A DNA stretch of 8,059 nucleotides from Desulfobacteraceae bacterium 4572_19 (GTDB lineage Bacteria > Desulfobacterota > Desulfobacteria > Desulfobacterales > NBLS01), in assembly GCA_002084385.1 (NCBI GenBank), contig NBLS01000015.1:1-8059 (forward strand), written 5' to 3'. The position numbers and the translations under genes were made by a program. Under the pieces are notes generated by a model. It was not told the DNA's origin. It searched no databases and saw only the letters and a program-made list of their open reading frames with translations. Shown piece after piece: positions 855 through 7,706 of the stretch (position 1 is its first letter; every line of letters begins with the position of its first letter).

Positions 855-1655
855 TTACGATTCAGATATAATAAATTTTTTTATCTCTTTTTTTAGAACA
901 GTCTCTCCAATGCCCAAAATATTATTGTGTTTGCAATCATCAATTTCAATAAGTCTTGCCCTGCCTTTAAAATTAGTCACCTGTTCTCTGGCGAGTTTAA
1001 TGGGAATAATATCATCATCAAGACCATGAAATAAAATTGCTGGTGAATCGGTTTGTTTTGCCCATATATTTGATAGAAATTTATGTTTCAATAAATATCT
1101 AACTGGTAGCCATGGGTAGTGATTTTGTGCCACATCCGCCATGGACGTATAAGCTGAAATCAATATTAACCCTGATATCGAAGTTTGTGTGGAAACCCAT
1201 GTTGCAACACCTGTTCCCATGGATTCACCCATAAGAAAAATAGGTAATTTTTCAGACTCTGTTTTCTTTATATAAGAGACAAGAGCCAATGCTTTTTCAC
1301 GAATTATATTCTCATCAGGCACACTTAAGTCCCCTCCAAACCCGGGATATTCAAAAAGTACTATATTGGAATTAAAGCCGGATAATAAATCATAAAAGTA
1401 TGTTCGATCACAAGCATTACCGGCATTGCCATGATAAATAACAATCCAATTTTCAGGATTTATAACTTGTTTTAAATAATAACGGATACCGTCAACATTA
1501 ACAGCTTTGGCATTATATCTAACTAATTGTGAGCAGGTTCCAAATGGTGTACCCATTGGATAAAACAGCATCTTCTCTTGGAAAAAATAGATAATTATTG
1601 CAATCATACAATAAAATGCCATTCCAACTGTAATAATTTGAATAATGAGTTTCAT
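855..1655 (-). CDS. alpha/beta hydrolase, Bem46/YfhR-like, membrane-anchored
   Basis: A 266-residue serine hydrolase of the alpha/beta fold. Residues 5-25 form one N-terminal hydrophobic helix, probably an uncleaved membrane anchor. The core follows in the order usual for Bem46/ABHD13-like proteins: the HGNAGN oxyanion motif at 75-80, the nucleophile elbow GESMG with Ser145, the acid in HGLDDDIIP (probably Asp214), and the catalytic histidine in CKHNN (His243). All three triad residues are present, so the enzyme looks intact; its substrate cannot be told from sequence. The start codon overlaps the gatA stop in an ATGA (1652-1655), and no Shine-Dalgarno sequence is visible, so translation is probably coupled to gatA. 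It is the last gene of the minus-strand operon. No convincing intrinsic terminator lies between it and the converging gene ending at 790. The functional link to tRNA amidation, if any, is unknown. Confidence 0.85.
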   Translation of the reverse strand: MKLIIQIITVGMAFYCMIAIIIYFFQEKMLFYPMGTPFGTCSQLVRYNAKAVNVDGIRYYLKQVINPENWIVIYHGNAGNACDRTYFYDLLSGFNSNIVLFEYPGFGGDLSVPDENIIREKALALVSYIKKTESEKLPIFLMGESMGTGVATWVSTQTSISGLILISAYTSMADVAQNHYPWLPVRYLLKHKFLSNIWAKQTDSPAILFHGLDDDIIPIKLAREQVTNFKGRARLIEIDDCKHNNILGIGETVLKKEIKKFIISES

Positions 1656-3115
1656 AATTTATTAAAATGCACTGCCTGTTCAAAACAGTATGCCGCCTTA
1701 AAAAGAGACTTCTCATCAAAATGTTTTCCCATAAGCTGAAGTCCTATGGGTAACTTCGTGGAAGATTGACCAGCCGGAACACTTATTCCGGGTATTCCGG
1801 CCAGATTTGCCGATATGGTAAAAATATCAGATAAGTACATTACTAAGGGATCTTTTGCAAATTCACCTATTTTTTGTGCAGGTGCAGGGGCAACAGGAGA
1901 AAGAATAATATCGCATTTTGTAAAAGCATTTTTAAAATCTTCCATTATAAGAGTACGTGCCTGAGATGCTTTTTTATAATAAGCATCATAATACCCTGAT
2001 GAAAGGGCATAGGTTCCAAGAATAATCCTTCGCTGAACTTCTTTTCCAAACCCATTGGATTTTGTATTTTTATACATCTCATAAAGATCAGTTGTACCAA
2101 AATCCCTTAAACCATATTTAACACCATCATACCGTGCAAGATTAGAAGATGCTTCGGATGTGGCAATAAGATAATATGCTGCTACTACATATTCTGTACG
2201 GGGTAAGGATATCTCAATACAATTAGCCCCAAGATTTTCCATAATTTTAATAGCAGACTTTGTAACAGAAGTAACATCGGGGTCAATGCCTTTTATTTGG
2301 ATATATTCAACTGGAATTCCTATGGTCATTCCCTTTAATGGCAAATCTTCATTTTTTATTAAAACTGACGAAAGATCAGGAAGAGTTTGATCTGCTGAAG
2401 TCGAATCATTTGGATCATAACCTGCAATGGTATTATAAAGTAAAGAGCAGTCTGTTACATTTTTTGTAAGCGGTCCTACCTGATCAAGAGATGATGCAAA
2501 AGCAACAATACCGAAACGTGAAACCCTGCCGTAAGTTGGCTTTAAACCAACAACTCCACAATGGGATGCCGGTTGGCGGATGGAACCGCCGGTATCACTT
2601 CCAAGGGAACCAAGACACATATTTGCAGCCACAGACGCAGCCGATCCTCCACTTGAACCACCTGGTATATGATCAAGATCCCATGGATTTCGAGTTATTT
2701 TTATTCCTGAATTTTCATTGGAAGAACCCATAGCAAACTCATCCATATTAACCTTTCCAACAATAACAGCACCAGCATCTTTTAACTTTTTTATAACAGT
2801 TGCATCGTAAGGTGGAATATAACCCTTAAGAATTTTTGATGCACAAGTTGTTTCAATACCCTCTGTATTTATCAGGTCTTTTATGGAAATTGGTATTCCT
2901 GTAAGAGGTGAAATATTTTTACCACTTGCAAATCGTTTATCAGCATTTTTTGCTTGTTCTAAAGCTTTAACACTACAGATATTTAAGTATGCTCCAATTT
3001 TATCATCCATTTTATATATTTGTTCTATAACATCTTTTACAAGTTCATTAGATGAAATCTCTTTTTTTATTAAAAGGCCAGATGCCTCTTCTATGGTCAA
3101 CTGATGTAATTTCAT
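1652..3115 (-). CDS. gatA: Asp/Glu-tRNA amidotransferase subunit A (GatA)
   Basis: GatA is the amidase subunit of GatCAB. It releases ammonia from glutamine, which GatB uses to convert mischarged Glu-tRNA(Gln), and often Asp-tRNA(Asn), to the amide forms. The protein has 487 residues, the normal length. The amidase-signature region is complete: SIKD with catalytic Lys79, PGGSSGGSAA with cis-Ser154, and GSDTGGSIR with nucleophile Ser178, the same numbering as in Staphylococcus aureus GatA. The C-terminal part (about 400-465) has the family pattern SPVAP...GIPGISVPAG...PIGLQLMG. The ATG at 3115 has only a weak AAAGG about 12 bases upstream. A 304-bp gap separates it from gatC; it holds a MITE copy and an older repeat, whereas the 3' junction with the hydrolase gene is a 4-base overlap. 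gatB is not in the window and must lie elsewhere. Confidence 0.97.
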   Translation of the reverse strand: MKLHQLTIEEASGLLIKKEISSNELVKDVIEQIYKMDDKIGAYLNICSVKALEQAKNADKRFASGKNISPLTGIPISIKDLINTEGIETTCASKILKGYIPPYDATVIKKLKDAGAVIVGKVNMDEFAMGSSNENSGIKITRNPWDLDHIPGGSSGGSAASVAANMCLGSLGSDTGGSIRQPASHCGVVGLKPTYGRVSRFGIVAFASSLDQVGPLTKNVTDCSLLYNTIAGYDPNDSTSADQTLPDLSSVLIKNEDLPLKGMTIGIPVEYIQIKGIDPDVTSVTKSAIKIMENLGANCIEISLPRTEYVVAAYYLIATSEASSNLARYDGVKYGLRDFGTTDLYEMYKNTKSNGFGKEVQRRIILGTYALSSGYYDAYYKKASQARTLIMEDFKNAFTKCDIILSPVAPAPAQKIGEFAKDPLVMYLSDIFTISANLAGIPGISVPAGQSSTKLPIGLQLMGKHFDEKSLFKAAYCFEQAVHFNKL

Positions 3116-3186
3116 AAATATTTAATACCTTTATTAGAGTTCACAGACCGTTAGATACTTATTGATGTAACGGCTTATATTTTATA

Positions 3187-3425
3187 TGAAAGTCCATAAA
3201 AAAACTGTATTTAAAAACTTTCATTTTTTATAACCATTCATGAACAAGAAATGCAATTTTTTGGTAATCTCACATTTGTAAGCGTTCACAAGTTCTTATA
3301 TTCGCATAAGCGACTTAGCATATAATAGTTGTCCTATATATGACAAGCTGTTTATGCAAAGATGAGGTATTGTGAACGCTTACCATTTTTTGTTGTAGCG
3401 TATTATTCACCATGGCAAGTTATAT
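3187..3425. repeat. dispersed repeat split by a MITE (filled site)
   Basis: This fills most of the 304-bp gatC-gatA gap. The left part (3187-3229) matches 7541-7584 at about 80% identity, beginning with a shared 17-base block TGAAAGTCCATAAAAAA. The right part (3384-3425) matches 7577-7618 without gaps at about 70%, including TATTCACC and AAGTT. Between the two parts sits the 154-bp MITE copy with a CATTTTTT on each side, where the copy near 7577 has only one. The right part reaches the last codons of gatC (stop at 3420-3422). In the rest of the gap (3116-3186) I see only a weak hairpin, CCGTTA at 3148-3153 pairing with TAACGG at 3168-3173, with no T-tract. Confidence 0.6.
3230..3383. mobile_element. 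palindromic MITE, copy A (IS66-like ends), between gatC and gatA
   Basis: A 154-bp non-coding element, roughly 87% identical to the copy at 3735-3890 and in the same orientation. The right end is GTGAACGCTTAC and the left end a decayed ATAACCATTCAT. An internal GTAAGCGTTCACAA at 3278-3291 is the exact inverse of TTGTGAACGCTTAC at 3370-3383, giving a 14-bp outer stem around an imperfect inner stem. Perfect 8-bp direct repeats CATTTTTT flank it at 3222-3229 and 3384-3391, as expected of a target duplication. No transposase is encoded. GTAA-starting ends with 8-bp target duplications are known from the IS66 family, so a related element acting in trans is the likely mobiliser (inference). Left-end mutations suggest this copy is the more decayed of the two. 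Confidence 0.75.
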
Positions 3426-3704
3426 AACTTTTGGAACAATAAAATAACCGTCTTCGCTTTTCGGAGCATTTTGCAAAGCGTCATCCACATCCAATGATTC
3501 CTTAACAATATCTTCCCTGAATACATTAGTTAAAAAAGAGGCATGGGTTGTTGCAGGCACGCCAGTTGTATCCAATGTTTTCAGAGTATCCACATAACCT
3601 AAAATTTTCCCCATCTGACTTGCAAGTTCTTCTACAGACGTTTTATCAATATCAAGACGGGCAAGCGTTGCCACATAAGTAATTTCATCATTTGTAATTT
3701 CCAT
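3420..3704 (-). CDS. gatC: Asp/Glu-tRNA amidotransferase subunit C (GatC)
   Basis: GatC is the small clamp subunit that holds GatA and GatB together. The protein has 94 residues, the usual size. The family pattern is visible: an N-terminal helix with a YVATLARLDI motif (residues 10-19), MGKILGYVDTLKTLDT (31-46), and a C-terminal part with a REDIV-type strand (63-67), a DALQNAPKSEDGYFIVPKVI end (75-94) being typical. The ATG at 3704 is chosen because GGAG lies six bases upstream (3711-3714) and because residue 1 matches normal GatC starts. A longer in-frame reading to 3827 exists, but its first 41 codons run through MITE sequence and have no GatC-like content. The gene is bracketed by two MITE copies. 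Without copy B, the distance from the SPOR gene stop to this start would be only 23 bases. Confidence 0.95.
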   Translation of the reverse strand: MEITNDEITYVATLARLDIDKTSVEELASQMGKILGYVDTLKTLDTTGVPATTHASFLTNVFREDIVKESLDVDDALQNAPKSEDGYFIVPKVI

Positions 3705-3710
3705 ATCAAT

Positions 3711-3714
3711 CTCC
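3711..3714 (-). promoter_or_regulatory. gatC ribosome binding site
   Basis: On the minus strand this reads GGAG, with six bases (ATTGAT) before the ATG at 3704. It decides the gatC start against the longer upstream reading that enters the MITE. It lies outside the transposed element, so the original translation signal survived the insertion. Confidence 0.8.
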
Positions 3715-3734
3715 AGTGCTCTAAAGCTTATTTT

Positions 3735-3890
3735 GTAACCGTTCACGAACAAGAAATGTGATTTTACGGTAATCTCACATTTGTAAGCGTTCACAAGTGC
3801 CTTATATTCGCATAAACAGCTTGTCATATAATAGTTATCCTATATATGACAAACTGTTTATGCGAAGATGAGATGCTTGTGAACGCTTAC
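3735..3890. mobile_element. palindromic MITE, copy B (IS66-like ends), between SPOR gene and gatC
   Basis: A 156-bp non-coding element bounded by terminal repeats GTAACCGTTCAC (3735-3746) and GTGAACGCTTAC (3879-3890), inverse with one mismatch. A second direct copy of the end motif, GTAAGCGTTCACAAG, lies at 3783-3797 and pairs perfectly over 15 bp with 3876-3890. Inside it, 3807-3819 pairs with 3854-3866 (13 bp) and 3821-3830 with 3843-3852 (10 bp), so 3783-3890 can fold into a long hairpin. Perfect 8-bp direct repeats CTTATTTT flank the element at 3727-3734 and 3891-3898. The right copy contains the SPOR gene's stop codon, so the duplication kept that gene intact. There is no coding capacity. 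IS66-type mobilisation is inferred from the GTAA ends and 8-bp duplications. Confidence 0.82.
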
Positions 3891-3891
3891 C

Positions 3892-4725
3892 TTATTTTAT
3901 TAGTACAATAGTTTTATATTTACCAGCCTTAAGCTTCGTCTCAACTTTTAATGCTTCAGCTTTGGTATTAAAACTACCTACCCGAATACGATACCATGTT
4001 ATTTTACCATGCTTTTTTATTATCATATACGATAAATACCCTCTATTTTTTAAAGTATTTACCAAATTAAATGCATCGCTAAAATTATTTAAGGCTGCCA
4101 CCTGAATTGTATATTTTTCTTTATTATTACTCTTTTCAGACCTAACGGTATCTGGTTTTACAGATATTTTTTTTATATCATCGTTATCAGTTTCCTGTTT
4201 AATTTTTTTTCTAATATCAGCAATAGATACTGCTTCTTGCAAGTTTTTTTGAACAGCTACATTTACAGTTTGTTTTTCTAATTTTCTGTGGTTTTGCTGT
4301 TGTTTTGCTATCCTCTGTTTTTCCTGTTTTATTAGTTTTTCTGGTTTTGCTGATTTTTCAAACGACGAGTTTAGTTCCAACTGTCGGGCTATCTCTTTTT
4401 TTGATGATATTTTAAGACTTTTTTTCTCAATAATTTTTATAGGAATTTCTTCTTCATTATTTTTCAATTCTTTGTAAAATTCAAACTCCGGTATCAATAT
4501 GGCTTGTTTATCCGAGTTAGAATAAATTGCATTTTCCAACTCTTGTACTTCCTGTACAACACCAAGTTGCCGTTCGAGTTTATCTATATCAAAGGTAATG
4601 GGAGCTGTTCCTCTTCCTACAAAAACACCCAGCGTAAACATCACTGTTGCAGAGAGAAAAAACACACACCCCCAAAGAAAAAAAGATTTATACGAAGTTT
4701 CCTTCTGTAGCAAATTATCATCCAT
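3892..4725 (-). CDS. membrane-anchored SPOR-domain protein
   Basis: A 277-residue, probably periplasm-facing protein. It has a short cytoplasmic N-terminus, one transmembrane helix (about 14-36, ending GVFVGRG), a long Lys/Glu/Gln-rich linker (about 45-200, likely coiled coil or disordered), and a C-terminal SPOR domain (about 203-277; YTIQVAALNNFSDA...WYRIRVGSF...AEALKVETKLK). SPOR domains bind denuded peptidoglycan glycans, usually at the division septum; a role in cell-wall division is inferred, not shown. I start at the ATG at 4725, one base after the argS stop; an in-frame GTG at 4752 would add nine residues but has no better ribosome site. No Shine-Dalgarno sequence is visible, so coupling to argS is likely. 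The stop codon lies inside the target duplication of MITE copy B. Confidence 0.85.
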   Translation of the reverse strand: MDDNLLQKETSYKSFFLWGCVFFLSATVMFTLGVFVGRGTAPITFDIDKLERQLGVVQEVQELENAIYSNSDKQAILIPEFEFYKELKNNEEEIPIKIIEKKSLKISSKKEIARQLELNSSFEKSAKPEKLIKQEKQRIAKQQQNHRKLEKQTVNVAVQKNLQEAVSIADIRKKIKQETDNDDIKKISVKPDTVRSEKSNNKEKYTIQVAALNNFSDAFNLVNTLKNRGYLSYMIIKKHGKITWYRIRVGSFNTKAEALKVETKLKAGKYKTIVLIK

Positions 4726-4726
4726 T

Positions 4727-6499
4727 TTACATTTTATCTGGAGCTGAGACACCGAGAAGTGCTAACCCATTTTTAATAACCTTCTGAACTGCAATAATCA
4801 AATAAAGTCTGGCAGATGACAACTGTTTATCATCTGTTAAAACCTTATGTTTATTGTAGTATGAATGAAAAGCAGATGCAAGATTCATAAGATAATAGGT
4901 TATCCTGTGCGGTTCCATATGTATTGCAGCAAACTTAACTATTTCAGGATATCTGGCAAGAAGTTTTATTAAACCGACCTCCTCTTTTTCTTTGAGTTTA
5001 GATACCATATCAGTATTCCACTCAGGAATTTCAATTCCCCTTTCACTCTGACCTTTACGTGCAATACTTGCAATTCTAGCATGAACATATTGAACGTAAT
5101 ATACAGGATTATCGTTACTTTTTTTCTTTGCAAGCTCTAAATCAAAATCCAAACTACTTTCGTAATGCCGTGCAAGAAAAATAAACCGTGCGGCATCCTT
5201 ACCGACCTCTTTTACAACCTGATCAAGTGTTACAAATTCACCTGATCTTGTTGACATTGCGACAGGTTTCCCCCCCCTTAAGAGATTTACTAACTGTACC
5301 AATATTACATCAAATGATTTTTTATTTTTTCCGGATGCTTTTTCCGATGCTTCACCAGCGGTTTCACCAGAGGCTTCAATAGACGCATTCATTCTCGAAA
5401 TATACCCGTGATGATCAGCCCCCCAAACATCTATAACCCTATTAAATCCCCTGCTAAATTTTTCCTGATGATATGCAATATCAGACGCAAAATATGTTGT
5501 TTGACCATTACTCCGAATAACAACCCTGTCTTTATCGTCTCCAAACTTCTCGGTCTTAAACCACCATGCACCATCACTTTCGTAAATAACACCTCTTTTT
5601 TTAAAATCCTCTATTACAGATGCAACTTTCCCCGAATCATAAAGAGTTTGCTCACTAAACCAATTATCAAAAATAACTCCAAAGGTCTCAAGATCAGAAC
5701 GAATACCATCTAAAATAGTTGTCGCTGCATATCTTGCACAAATAGCAATGGCATTCTCTTCAGACTCTTCGGAAATTTCATCTCCTTTATCAGTTTGTAT
5801 TTTTTTGGCAATATCACGAATATAATCACCTTGATAACACTCTTTAGGAAAGTCGATTTCTTTTTTCTCCATTTTTTTGCAAACCACCTCAACAGGGGCA
5901 ATCTTCGTATCTGTTTCTGGCTCTGACTCTTTTTCAAGCAATTGCATAAGACGCAGATAAACAGACTTTCCAAGGGTACGTATCTGTCTTCCTGAATCAT
6001 TTATATAATACTCTCTTTGAACTTCAAATCCACTAAACGCAAGAATATTAGCCACACTATCGCCTACAGCTGCACCCCTTCCATGACCAACATGAAGTGG
6101 ACCTGTAGGATTTGCACTTACAAATTCCACCTGAATTTTTTTTCCTTTACCCATGGAAGATGAACCATATTTTGCACCATCTTCATGAACATTATGGAGA
6201 GTCGGATACCATGCAGAATCATCTATAAAGAAATTTATAAACCCTGGTCCGGCTATTTCTGTTTTTACAATAATACCTGCCGGATCAAAAATATTATTAA
6301 TGATTATTTCTGCTATTTTTCTTGGAGCCATTTTTTGCAATTTTGCCGAAACCATAGAAAAATTTGTAGAAAAATCCCCATGTAACTCATTTTTAGGCTC
6401 TTCTAATTCAGGCTCTTGAAATCGAGATGAATTTAACTCCCCATTTTCAAGAGCTTTTTTTGCAGAGTGCAAAATAATCTGTTTTATTATTTGTTTCAT
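4727..6499 (-). CDS. argS: arginyl-tRNA synthetase (ArgRS)
   Basis: A class I synthetase that charges tRNA(Arg) with arginine in the cytoplasm. It has 590 residues, somewhat long for the family. The N-terminal tRNA-binding (additional) domain covers about 1-110. The catalytic domain carries [20 protein letters not shown] (125-143) with the HIGH-type motif HVGH at 136-139 and INDSG at 166-170. The KMSKS-type loop reads PVAMSTRSG (412-420), so the usual lysines are Ala and Thr. The DALR anticodon-binding domain runs from about 468 ([10 protein letters not shown]) to the end. Two stretches look inserted: acidic/basic 188-213 and Ala/Ser/Gly/Glu-rich 374-394, both in surface-loop positions. The start ATG overlaps the upstream gene's stop (ATGA, 6496-6499) and has no ribosome site of its own, which implies translational coupling. 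The stop lies one base before the SPOR gene start. Confidence 0.97.
5318..5380 (-). repeat. low-complexity insert within argS
   Basis: Codons 374-394 of argS encode an Ala/Ser/Gly/Glu/Lys-rich stretch between the GYISRM and [12 protein letters not shown] parts, where ArgRS relatives usually have only a short link. The DNA shows local duplications (plus strand: TTCACCAG twice, and CCGGATGCTT beside CCGATGCTT), as expected from slippage. The reading frame is kept. Confidence 0.5.
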
Positions 6500-7511: not shown

Positions 7512-7539
7512 AAATAACTAATATGACAAATAGTTATTT
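7512..7539 (+). terminator. possible weak terminator after the tRNA genes
   Basis: AAATAACTA (7512-7520) and TAGTTATTT (7531-7539) form a 9-bp, A/T-rich stem with a 10-base loop, 34 bases after the second tRNA. There is no proper T-tract beyond TTATTTA, so its strength is doubtful. Parts of it (ATATGACAAA, TTTATG) resemble the MITE interior, so it may instead be a remnant of such an element. Confidence 0.3.
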
Positions 7540-7540
7540 A

Positions 7541-7618
7541 TGAAAGTCCATAAAAAAGCCATGTTATAAAGACTTACATTTTTTAGTGTGGTAAACTATT
7601 CACCCTTGTAAGTTGGAT
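7541..7618. repeat. dispersed repeat, uninterrupted copy (empty site)
   Basis: About 78 bp related to both flanks of MITE copy A. Its left half (7541-7584) matches 3187-3229 and its right half (7577-7618) matches 3384-3425, with a single CATTTTTT at 7577-7584 where the gat locus has one on each side of the MITE. The unit is non-coding and ends about 90 bases before the small gene at 7707. Its nature (old repeat, regulatory element or duplicated intergenic DNA) is unknown. Confidence 0.55.
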
Positions 7619-7706
7619 AAAAGTTCTTGGAAGGAAATGATAACTACTTCTGTTAATCCGGTACTCCAGTACATAATAACTATAGACCTCATATGTGGAA
7701 TCAAAT

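Follow-up and report, generated by a model that had tools for sequence, protein, structure and literature searches.

The gatC gene of Desulfobacteraceae bacterium 4572_19 lies between two similar, partly palindromic sequences, which raises the question of whether these are mobile elements and, if so, what moved them. They were studied in the first 8,059 nucleotides of contig NBLS01000015.1 (hereafter the window, meaning the whole stretch of DNA that was analysed). A first-pass annotation had described two copies of a miniature palindromic transposon with the same ends, each within its own perfect 8-bp target duplication, and their number, position and 87% similarity were confirmed. Copy 1 occupies 3230–3383 (154 bp) and copy 2 occupies 3735–3890 (156 bp), both oriented from their left end (L1) to their right end (R) on the plus strand, and 136 of 156 alignment columns are identical (87.2%). 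Copy 1 is flanked by CATTTTTT (3222–3229 and 3384–3391), and copy 2 by CTTATTTT (3727–3734 and 3891–3898), so that target duplications bound the unit in both window copies. As these duplications differ, the two insertions are independent, as had been proposed.

Each copy begins with L1 and a spacer that extends to position 48, followed by an internal end-like motif (L2) and a palindrome of 106–108 bp that runs from L2 to R. L2 is GTAAGCGTTCAC in both copies (3278–3289 and 3783–3794, plus strand), and R, which lies on the minus strand, reads GTGAACGCTTAC on the plus strand in both (3372–3383 and 3879–3890). The claim of shared ends is therefore correct for R, while L1 differs, being GTAACCGTTCAC in copy 2 (3735–3746, plus strand) and ATAACCATTCAT in copy 1 (3230–3241, plus strand), where it is decayed relative to other copies. 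Similarly, the term palindromic applies to the right two thirds of each copy (3278–3383 and 3783–3890) and not to the left 48 bp. The terminal inverted repeats of copy 2 (L1 GTAACCGTTCAC against R GTAAGCGTTCAC) agree at 11 of 12 positions, and have decayed in copy 1. At well under ~300 bp, neither copy has room for a transposase gene, and a long gatC frame merely reads upstream into copy 2. Being short and gene-less, with inverted ends and 8-bp duplications, they are indeed miniature non-autonomous transposons. Copy counts for the host cover the window only, where a scan with a family profile, built with both window copies included, found just these two at E values up to 10, plus their own palindromic reverse matches.

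The most likely answer, to which we assign a probability of roughly 0.7, is that each copy is a miniature inverted-repeat transposable element (MITE) with IS66-type ends, belongs to a family that is distributed across the phylum, and was moved in trans, most likely by a TnpC of the IS66 family. Such a transposase (with TnpA/TnpB) would bind L1 and R, and the element would be cut out or copied and inserted at a target opened by an 8-nt staggered cut, giving rise to the 8-bp duplications. L2 and the long L2–R palindrome would be carried inside the unit, with L2 normally not acting as an outer end. Two separate insertions would have entered the gaps before and after gatC in the gene run argS, SPOR-domain gene, gatC and gatA, and would have been tolerated, presumably with neutral effect on the run, because no frame was broken.

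Relatives with the same anatomy occur in other genomes. When 389 genomes of the order were searched with blast and no more than two candidates were scored in each, three genomes gave candidates (3/389). Only that in genome G115 was a real homologue, sharing the layout of the window copies and bounded by an exact duplication (GTAAAATA); the candidate in G024 was 27 bases within a reading frame, that in G074 matched 27 bases of the inner arm, and both were rejected. A three-motif pattern derived from the G115 homologue (GTAACCGTTCA-N20..50-GTAAGCGTT-N65..95-GAACGCTTAC) was found in 7 of the 389 genomes of the order of G115, with 27 matches in G168 and one each in G115, G010, G073, G318, G328 and G268. 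When slightly widened, it matched 3 of 395 genomes in a phylum sample (G115, G578 and G679) and 19 of 193 genomes in the order of G578, with 38 matches in G769. A reversed control pattern gave 0 matches in each of the three genome searches. The patterns are strict, making these genome and copy counts lower bounds: G578 has only 3 pattern matches but many more copies. The element that is closest to copy 2 among the 48 compared (L415) is 69.8% identical over 159 columns (E 1e-16, in a small set). The GatA of the window host is at most 68% identical to those of Desulfobacterales metagenome-assembled genomes (MAGs; 80 loci). Blast with the element found nothing in the 15 nearest genomes (0/15), though one of them, G010 (the genome of L012, a gatA relative of the window), holds a diverged copy according to the pattern.

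Copies can be numerous and dispersed, as in G168 and G769 (27 and 38 pattern matches, see above) and in G578, a single contig of 3,097,763 bases that appears to be Desulfurivibrio alkaliphilus AHT2. Exact 12-base ends occur 127 times in G578, against 1 for a control, and 370 kb of the genome, chosen for hits, contain 57 exact ends and 45 near-full elements. At this ratio, the 127 ends correspond to ~100 copies, a rough and extrapolated figure. Plasmids and phages yielded no blastn match to the window element, and plasmids none to a G578 element; the three-motif pattern gave nothing in viral contigs. A 31-base right end of the G578 type matched 101 plasmid records, the ten matches listed having E values of 0.6 or worse, and a 22-base pattern for the spacer–L2 junction found nothing in genome contigs.

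Mini-elements of other kinds were also encountered. Genome G010 contains a second kind of MITE (L190:560–708, L190:1624–1769 and L191:126–270), 145–149 bp long, with ends like GTAACCGTTCACGGTTGTTGGT, no internal L2 motif seen, and duplications of 8, 8 and 7 of 8 bases. Further variants of 133–188 bp, with GTAAGCG-type ends and exact 8-bp duplications, are found in G268 (L175:92–279) and G578 (L325:7571–7703 and L331:7706–7859). In L136:1501–1734 (G268), family-like ends are followed by repeated GGTTCA motifs and the internal make-up is different.

The duplications show that the family has been mobile. Outside the window, 48 distinct elements were compared, all with both flanks present; contig-end copies and identical sequences were dropped, and the copies of G168, G769 and G578 were sampled in part. 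The duplication is exact (8/8 bases) in 30 and 7/8 in 9, or 39 of 48 in total. Among the 16 elements compared first, it is exact in 10 and 7/8 in 2, the remaining four (L085, L088, L096 and L099) reaching neither value. Of 41 full copies detected in G578 by profile, 16 have 8/8 and 12 have 7/8 duplications, the profile having a mild bias, as it was made from 15 copies picked for having duplications. With the positions shifted by 20, 40 or 60 bases, none of 123 comparisons reached 7 or more. Chance is excluded as the origin of the duplications, given 28 of 41 copies at 7–8 of 8 bases versus 0/123 in the shifted control. The expectation that genome copies would carry duplications and constant ends was thus largely borne out, the ends being built into the search pattern.

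The same data show which of the three end-like motifs bound the mobile unit. Among 105 L2–R palindromes with an L1 outside, none shows 7 or more duplication bases at L2/R, and this establishes the unit as L1 to R. L2 is rarely able to serve alone: of 15 L2–R palindromes without L1, one has a duplication (L339:8147–8253, 107 bp, ACGGTCTT). The spacing of the motifs falls within ranges that are partly set by the pattern limits. Counting the window copies, 49 of 50 elements have an L1–L2 distance of 42–50 bp and the remaining one has 59 bp; the L2–R length is 101–110 bp, with 108 in 28 of the 50.

What, then, moved these elements? The first-pass annotation had tentatively assigned them to IS66, the ends of which start with GTAAGCG and are bordered by 8-bp repeats, according to the accessible part of one report (PMC11946415). 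IS66 TnpB was found in 79 of 389 genomes of one set and in 32 of 188 of another. Two sets of loci were scanned for GTAA...TTAC pairs 0.9–4.5 kb apart, with alike ends and 7–8 duplication bases, which gave rows in 15 of 90 and in 7 of 50 loci. One locus present twice (L209 = L259), a pair 1.67 kb apart with a 7/8 duplication (L203, L253) and a chance pair (L237) were set aside, leaving 11 + 7 = 18 elements of 2.2–2.5 kb with exact 8-bp duplications. These are partly close relatives (33 unique ends of 36), and GTAA and the duplication were conditions of the scan. Beyond GTAA, which was the only part of the start to be imposed, 35 of the 36 ends begin with GTAA(G/C)CG, and in 23 of 36 the inner position holds a strict match to ACC(C/G)CA (the inner block). 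The R of the mini-elements starts with GTAAGCG, and L1 with GTAACCG, a start that is also seen in 4 of the 36 IS66 ends (in L259, L390 and L408).

Agreement extends beyond the terminal bases, at least on the right side. A profile of the inner end, made from 11 IS66 elements with 0–2 bases of slack, was run on 50 mini-elements, including both window copies. The control consisted of 4030 GTAA sites in 80 gatA loci, and replaced a first control that was contaminated by real ends. For 40 of the 50 right ends, no more than 12 control sites scored as high, and for 45 no more than 1% did, whereas only 1 of 50 L2 motifs and none of 50 L1 ends were in the top 1%. Control sites as good as the element numbered 12 of 4030 for window copy 1, 72 for copy 2 and 1925 for L088. 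When IS66 ends were themselves left out and tested, there was one misfit of 19. The right end thus appears to keep an IS66 end, with the left end showing only the terminal bases. To judge from such sequence comparisons, IS66 kinship of the family is supported, short of proof.

Several observations weigh against this interpretation, and they concern the parental element above all. The first-pass annotation had proposed a search for a full-length IS66-type element with the same ends, and this part of the assignment did not hold up: no autonomous IS66 with the same full ends was present in the 141 IS66 loci compared, which represent part of the IS66 complement of these genomes. The window end GTAASCGTTYAC was in no IS66 of these loci, and an end fitting GTAASCGTTYAS was in one only (L220/L269, genome G208), as GTAAGCGTTCAG. 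This G208 end is the nearest found and shares its first 13 bases with the G578-type right end, but the second end of that IS66 is different and its duplication was not found. The three genomes with the most copies seen (G168, G578 and G769) gave no match to IS66 TnpB. There was also no IS66 DDE match in G168, nor in its 3 family members. In G578 a single IS66 DDE frame was seen, whose IS66-like ends lie 1.53 kb from each other and lack a duplication. Gaps in the MAGs may account for the missing TnpB in G168 and G769, but not in G578, a single contig. To these points are added the 9 of 48 elements with fewer than 7 matching duplication bases, the 5 of 50 right ends outside the top 1% (including window copy 2 and L088), and the lack of the IS66 inner part from L1 in all 50 mini-elements, which, moreover, are related to each other, so that their end scores are not independent trials.

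Candidate partners were rejected in two other cases. A 3.27-kb end pair in G578 has a second end unlike those of the family. In G328, a multi-copy IS66-related element is present at 17 loci (among L101 to L119); these loci lack the GTAA(G/C)CGTT(C/T) motif (GTAASCGTTY), and the 17 IS66-like elements were dismissed as partners.

Alternatively, the family might be moved by a transposase other than that of IS66, belonging to an unrecognised or lost element with GTAA ends and an 8-bp stagger. This explanation, which we consider unlikely, is favoured by the lack of the 12-base window end from the 141 IS66 loci and by the high copy number in genomes without an IS66 TnpB match (G168, G578 and G769) or, for G168, a DDE match. 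The second kind of MITE, with GTAACCGTTCACGGTTGTTGGT ends, also has 8-bp duplications, indicating an end signal that is used by several elements. On the other hand, IS66 elements of the same orders share the GTAA(G/C)CG start and the 8-bp duplication, as well as the inner block that is seen in 45 of 50 right ends. A search for gene-bearing candidates between paired, duplicated ends up to 6.5 kb apart yielded none that could be accepted in the loci scanned.

A further explanation concerns the hairpin rather than the ends. The palindrome might have been adopted by the host as an RNA or DNA structure, for instance an RNase III processing site or an mRNA-stability hairpin, and this would help to keep its pairing. 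Folding is indeed strong. As DNA, copy 2 has a fold of -46 kcal/mol (z -11.7 against 200 shuffles). The RNA of the gatC-sense strand reaches -71.6 kcal/mol in copy 2 (z -12.4) and -47.1 in copy 1 (z -5.9). A set of ten palindromes, made up of two from the window and single ones from eight genomes, has 97.0% of cells paired and a covariation score of 0.369 versus 0.179 (standard deviation 0.019) when shuffled and 0.088 at most when slid. Pairing is kept while the sequence changes. Both window copies have, in addition, the same orientation within a run of genes on one strand. However, two of the five covariation measures are unexceptional: pairs with changes on both sides (9, reached by 66 of 500 shuffles) and further pair types (22, reached by 253 of 500). 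The kept pairing may reflect selection on structure, but may also arise from inverted duplication or if a single protein recognises each half as an end, and mobility itself can keep palindromic ends matched. Rfam, at its gathering threshold, recognises no family in the window copies or in L086, L089 and L290. Promoter-like sites are at expectation (5 found, 5.0 expected) and terminator-like sites are absent, and the idea that the element delivers a promoter or terminator was rejected, there being no excess of sites. Given also the sporadic presence of the element between genomes, a host role in maintaining the hairpin seems improbable, and more so than a non-IS66 mover.

Finally, similar copies within ~500 bp in the same orientation might suggest that a segment near gatC was duplicated locally, or that the likeness is due to chance. 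This is ruled out by the differing 8-bp duplications, the joined flanks of the copies having no direct match (only a weak inverted one of 27 bases) and homologous elements elsewhere in other genomes having duplications of their own.

The two MITEs do bracket gatC, as first described, and sit in intergenic gaps without breaking a gene. All of argS, the SPOR-domain protein gene, gatC and gatA lie on the minus strand. Between the copies, gatC is intact (3420–3704, 94 aa; PF02686, E 8.7e-24). The downstream gene is gatA (1652–3115; PF01425), and the SPOR-domain gene (3892–4752; PF05036, on 3892–4737) is upstream of copy 2 in transcription order. Copy 2 adjoins the exact end of the latter gene, and its right duplication, which reads AAAATAAG on the minus strand, includes the TAA of that gene (3892–3894), by which the stop codon was kept upon insertion. 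The gap between gatC and gatA is 304 nt, or 142 nt after subtraction of the insert and one duplication. Among 31 relatives with both genes placed, it is at most 65 nt in 25, and 185–479 nt in six (L005, L008, L009, L021, L029 and L030).

A diverged paralogue of the copy 1 target region, without an insert, was found when the flanks of copy 1 were joined and compared with the window. It is located at 7534–7644 on the plus strand (74% over 111 columns, E 9e-16), behind two tRNA-Ser genes, and contains a single CATTTTTT at 7577–7584. In tests with 500 shuffles, none came up to the joined flanks or to the 60 bases of the left flank, and the right 60 bases scored 20, barely above the best shuffle (19). 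For the right 28 bases on their own, 24 of 500 shuffles were as high. The match on this side extends into the end of gatC. Copy 1 was inserted in an older repeat whose other copy is uninserted, a statement that is firm for the left side and modest for the right. The other loci compared contained no match to this older repeat (3186–3229 with 3392–3447, and 7534–7644) with an E value of 1e-3 or less. At the start of the window, positions 1–230 resemble the 3' end of a truncated tmRNA or tRNA-like gene, ending in GGTTCAATTCCCCGTAGGATCACCA, and there is a weak Rfam tmRNA match at 201–218, under the family threshold.

How does the family compare with known systems? It shares with IS66 (TnpA/TnpB/TnpC) the GTAAGCG/GTAACCG start, the 8-bp duplications and, in most right ends, the inner ACC(C/G)CA block. 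It differs in being gene-less and ~150–160 bp long, as opposed to 2.2–2.5 kb with genes, in positions 8–12, which are mostly TTCAC or TTCAG, in the additional L2 and long palindrome, and in an L1 without the inner block. Palindromic intergenic repeats of ~100–160 bp with long hairpin potential are also represented by ERIC, RUP and the NEMIS/Correia elements of Neisseria, which have other ends and duplications. Among MITEs with a proposed parent, the available parts of the reports describe MITECca01 of Cardinium, derived from IS982 (PMC9769881), and MITEPsy1 of Pseudomonas syringae, probably from ISPsy2 and with a 4-nt duplication (PMC3189936). Like the present elements, these are short and gene-less, with inverted ends and several or many copies, and are moved in trans. 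They have other parents and, as far as these sources go, a narrow host range, whereas the present elements each carry three end-like motifs and come from at least two orders. The family is classed among the MITEs, its right end being of IS66 type, and is set apart by its three-motif layout (L1, L2, R). The suggestion that the family is unnamed was upheld, in that no name or description of it, or of an IS66-linked MITE, was found in the literature searched, in so far as its text was accessible, with ISfinder and most subscription papers outside its scope. In the main text of the D. alkaliphilus AHT2 paper (PMC5016858), as far as available, the terms 'transpos', 'insertion sequence' and 'mite' are absent.

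More speculatively, and with considerable doubt, the family could represent an old, phylum-wide lineage of three-ended MITEs, in which a covarying hairpin takes part in the transposition signal or has a host RNA function, and which would have risen to ~100 copies in a genome that houses no autonomous partner. In practical terms, the signature of GTAACCGTTCA, 20–50 bp, GTAAGCGTT, 65–95 bp and GAACGCTTAC permits immediate annotation. The high copy number in an apparently cultured species, Desulfurivibrio alkaliphilus AHT2, means that mobility, and what the hairpin does to nearby genes, can be put to the test. A MITE that is present at high copy number without a visible partner also raises the question of how long such elements outlive their transposase.

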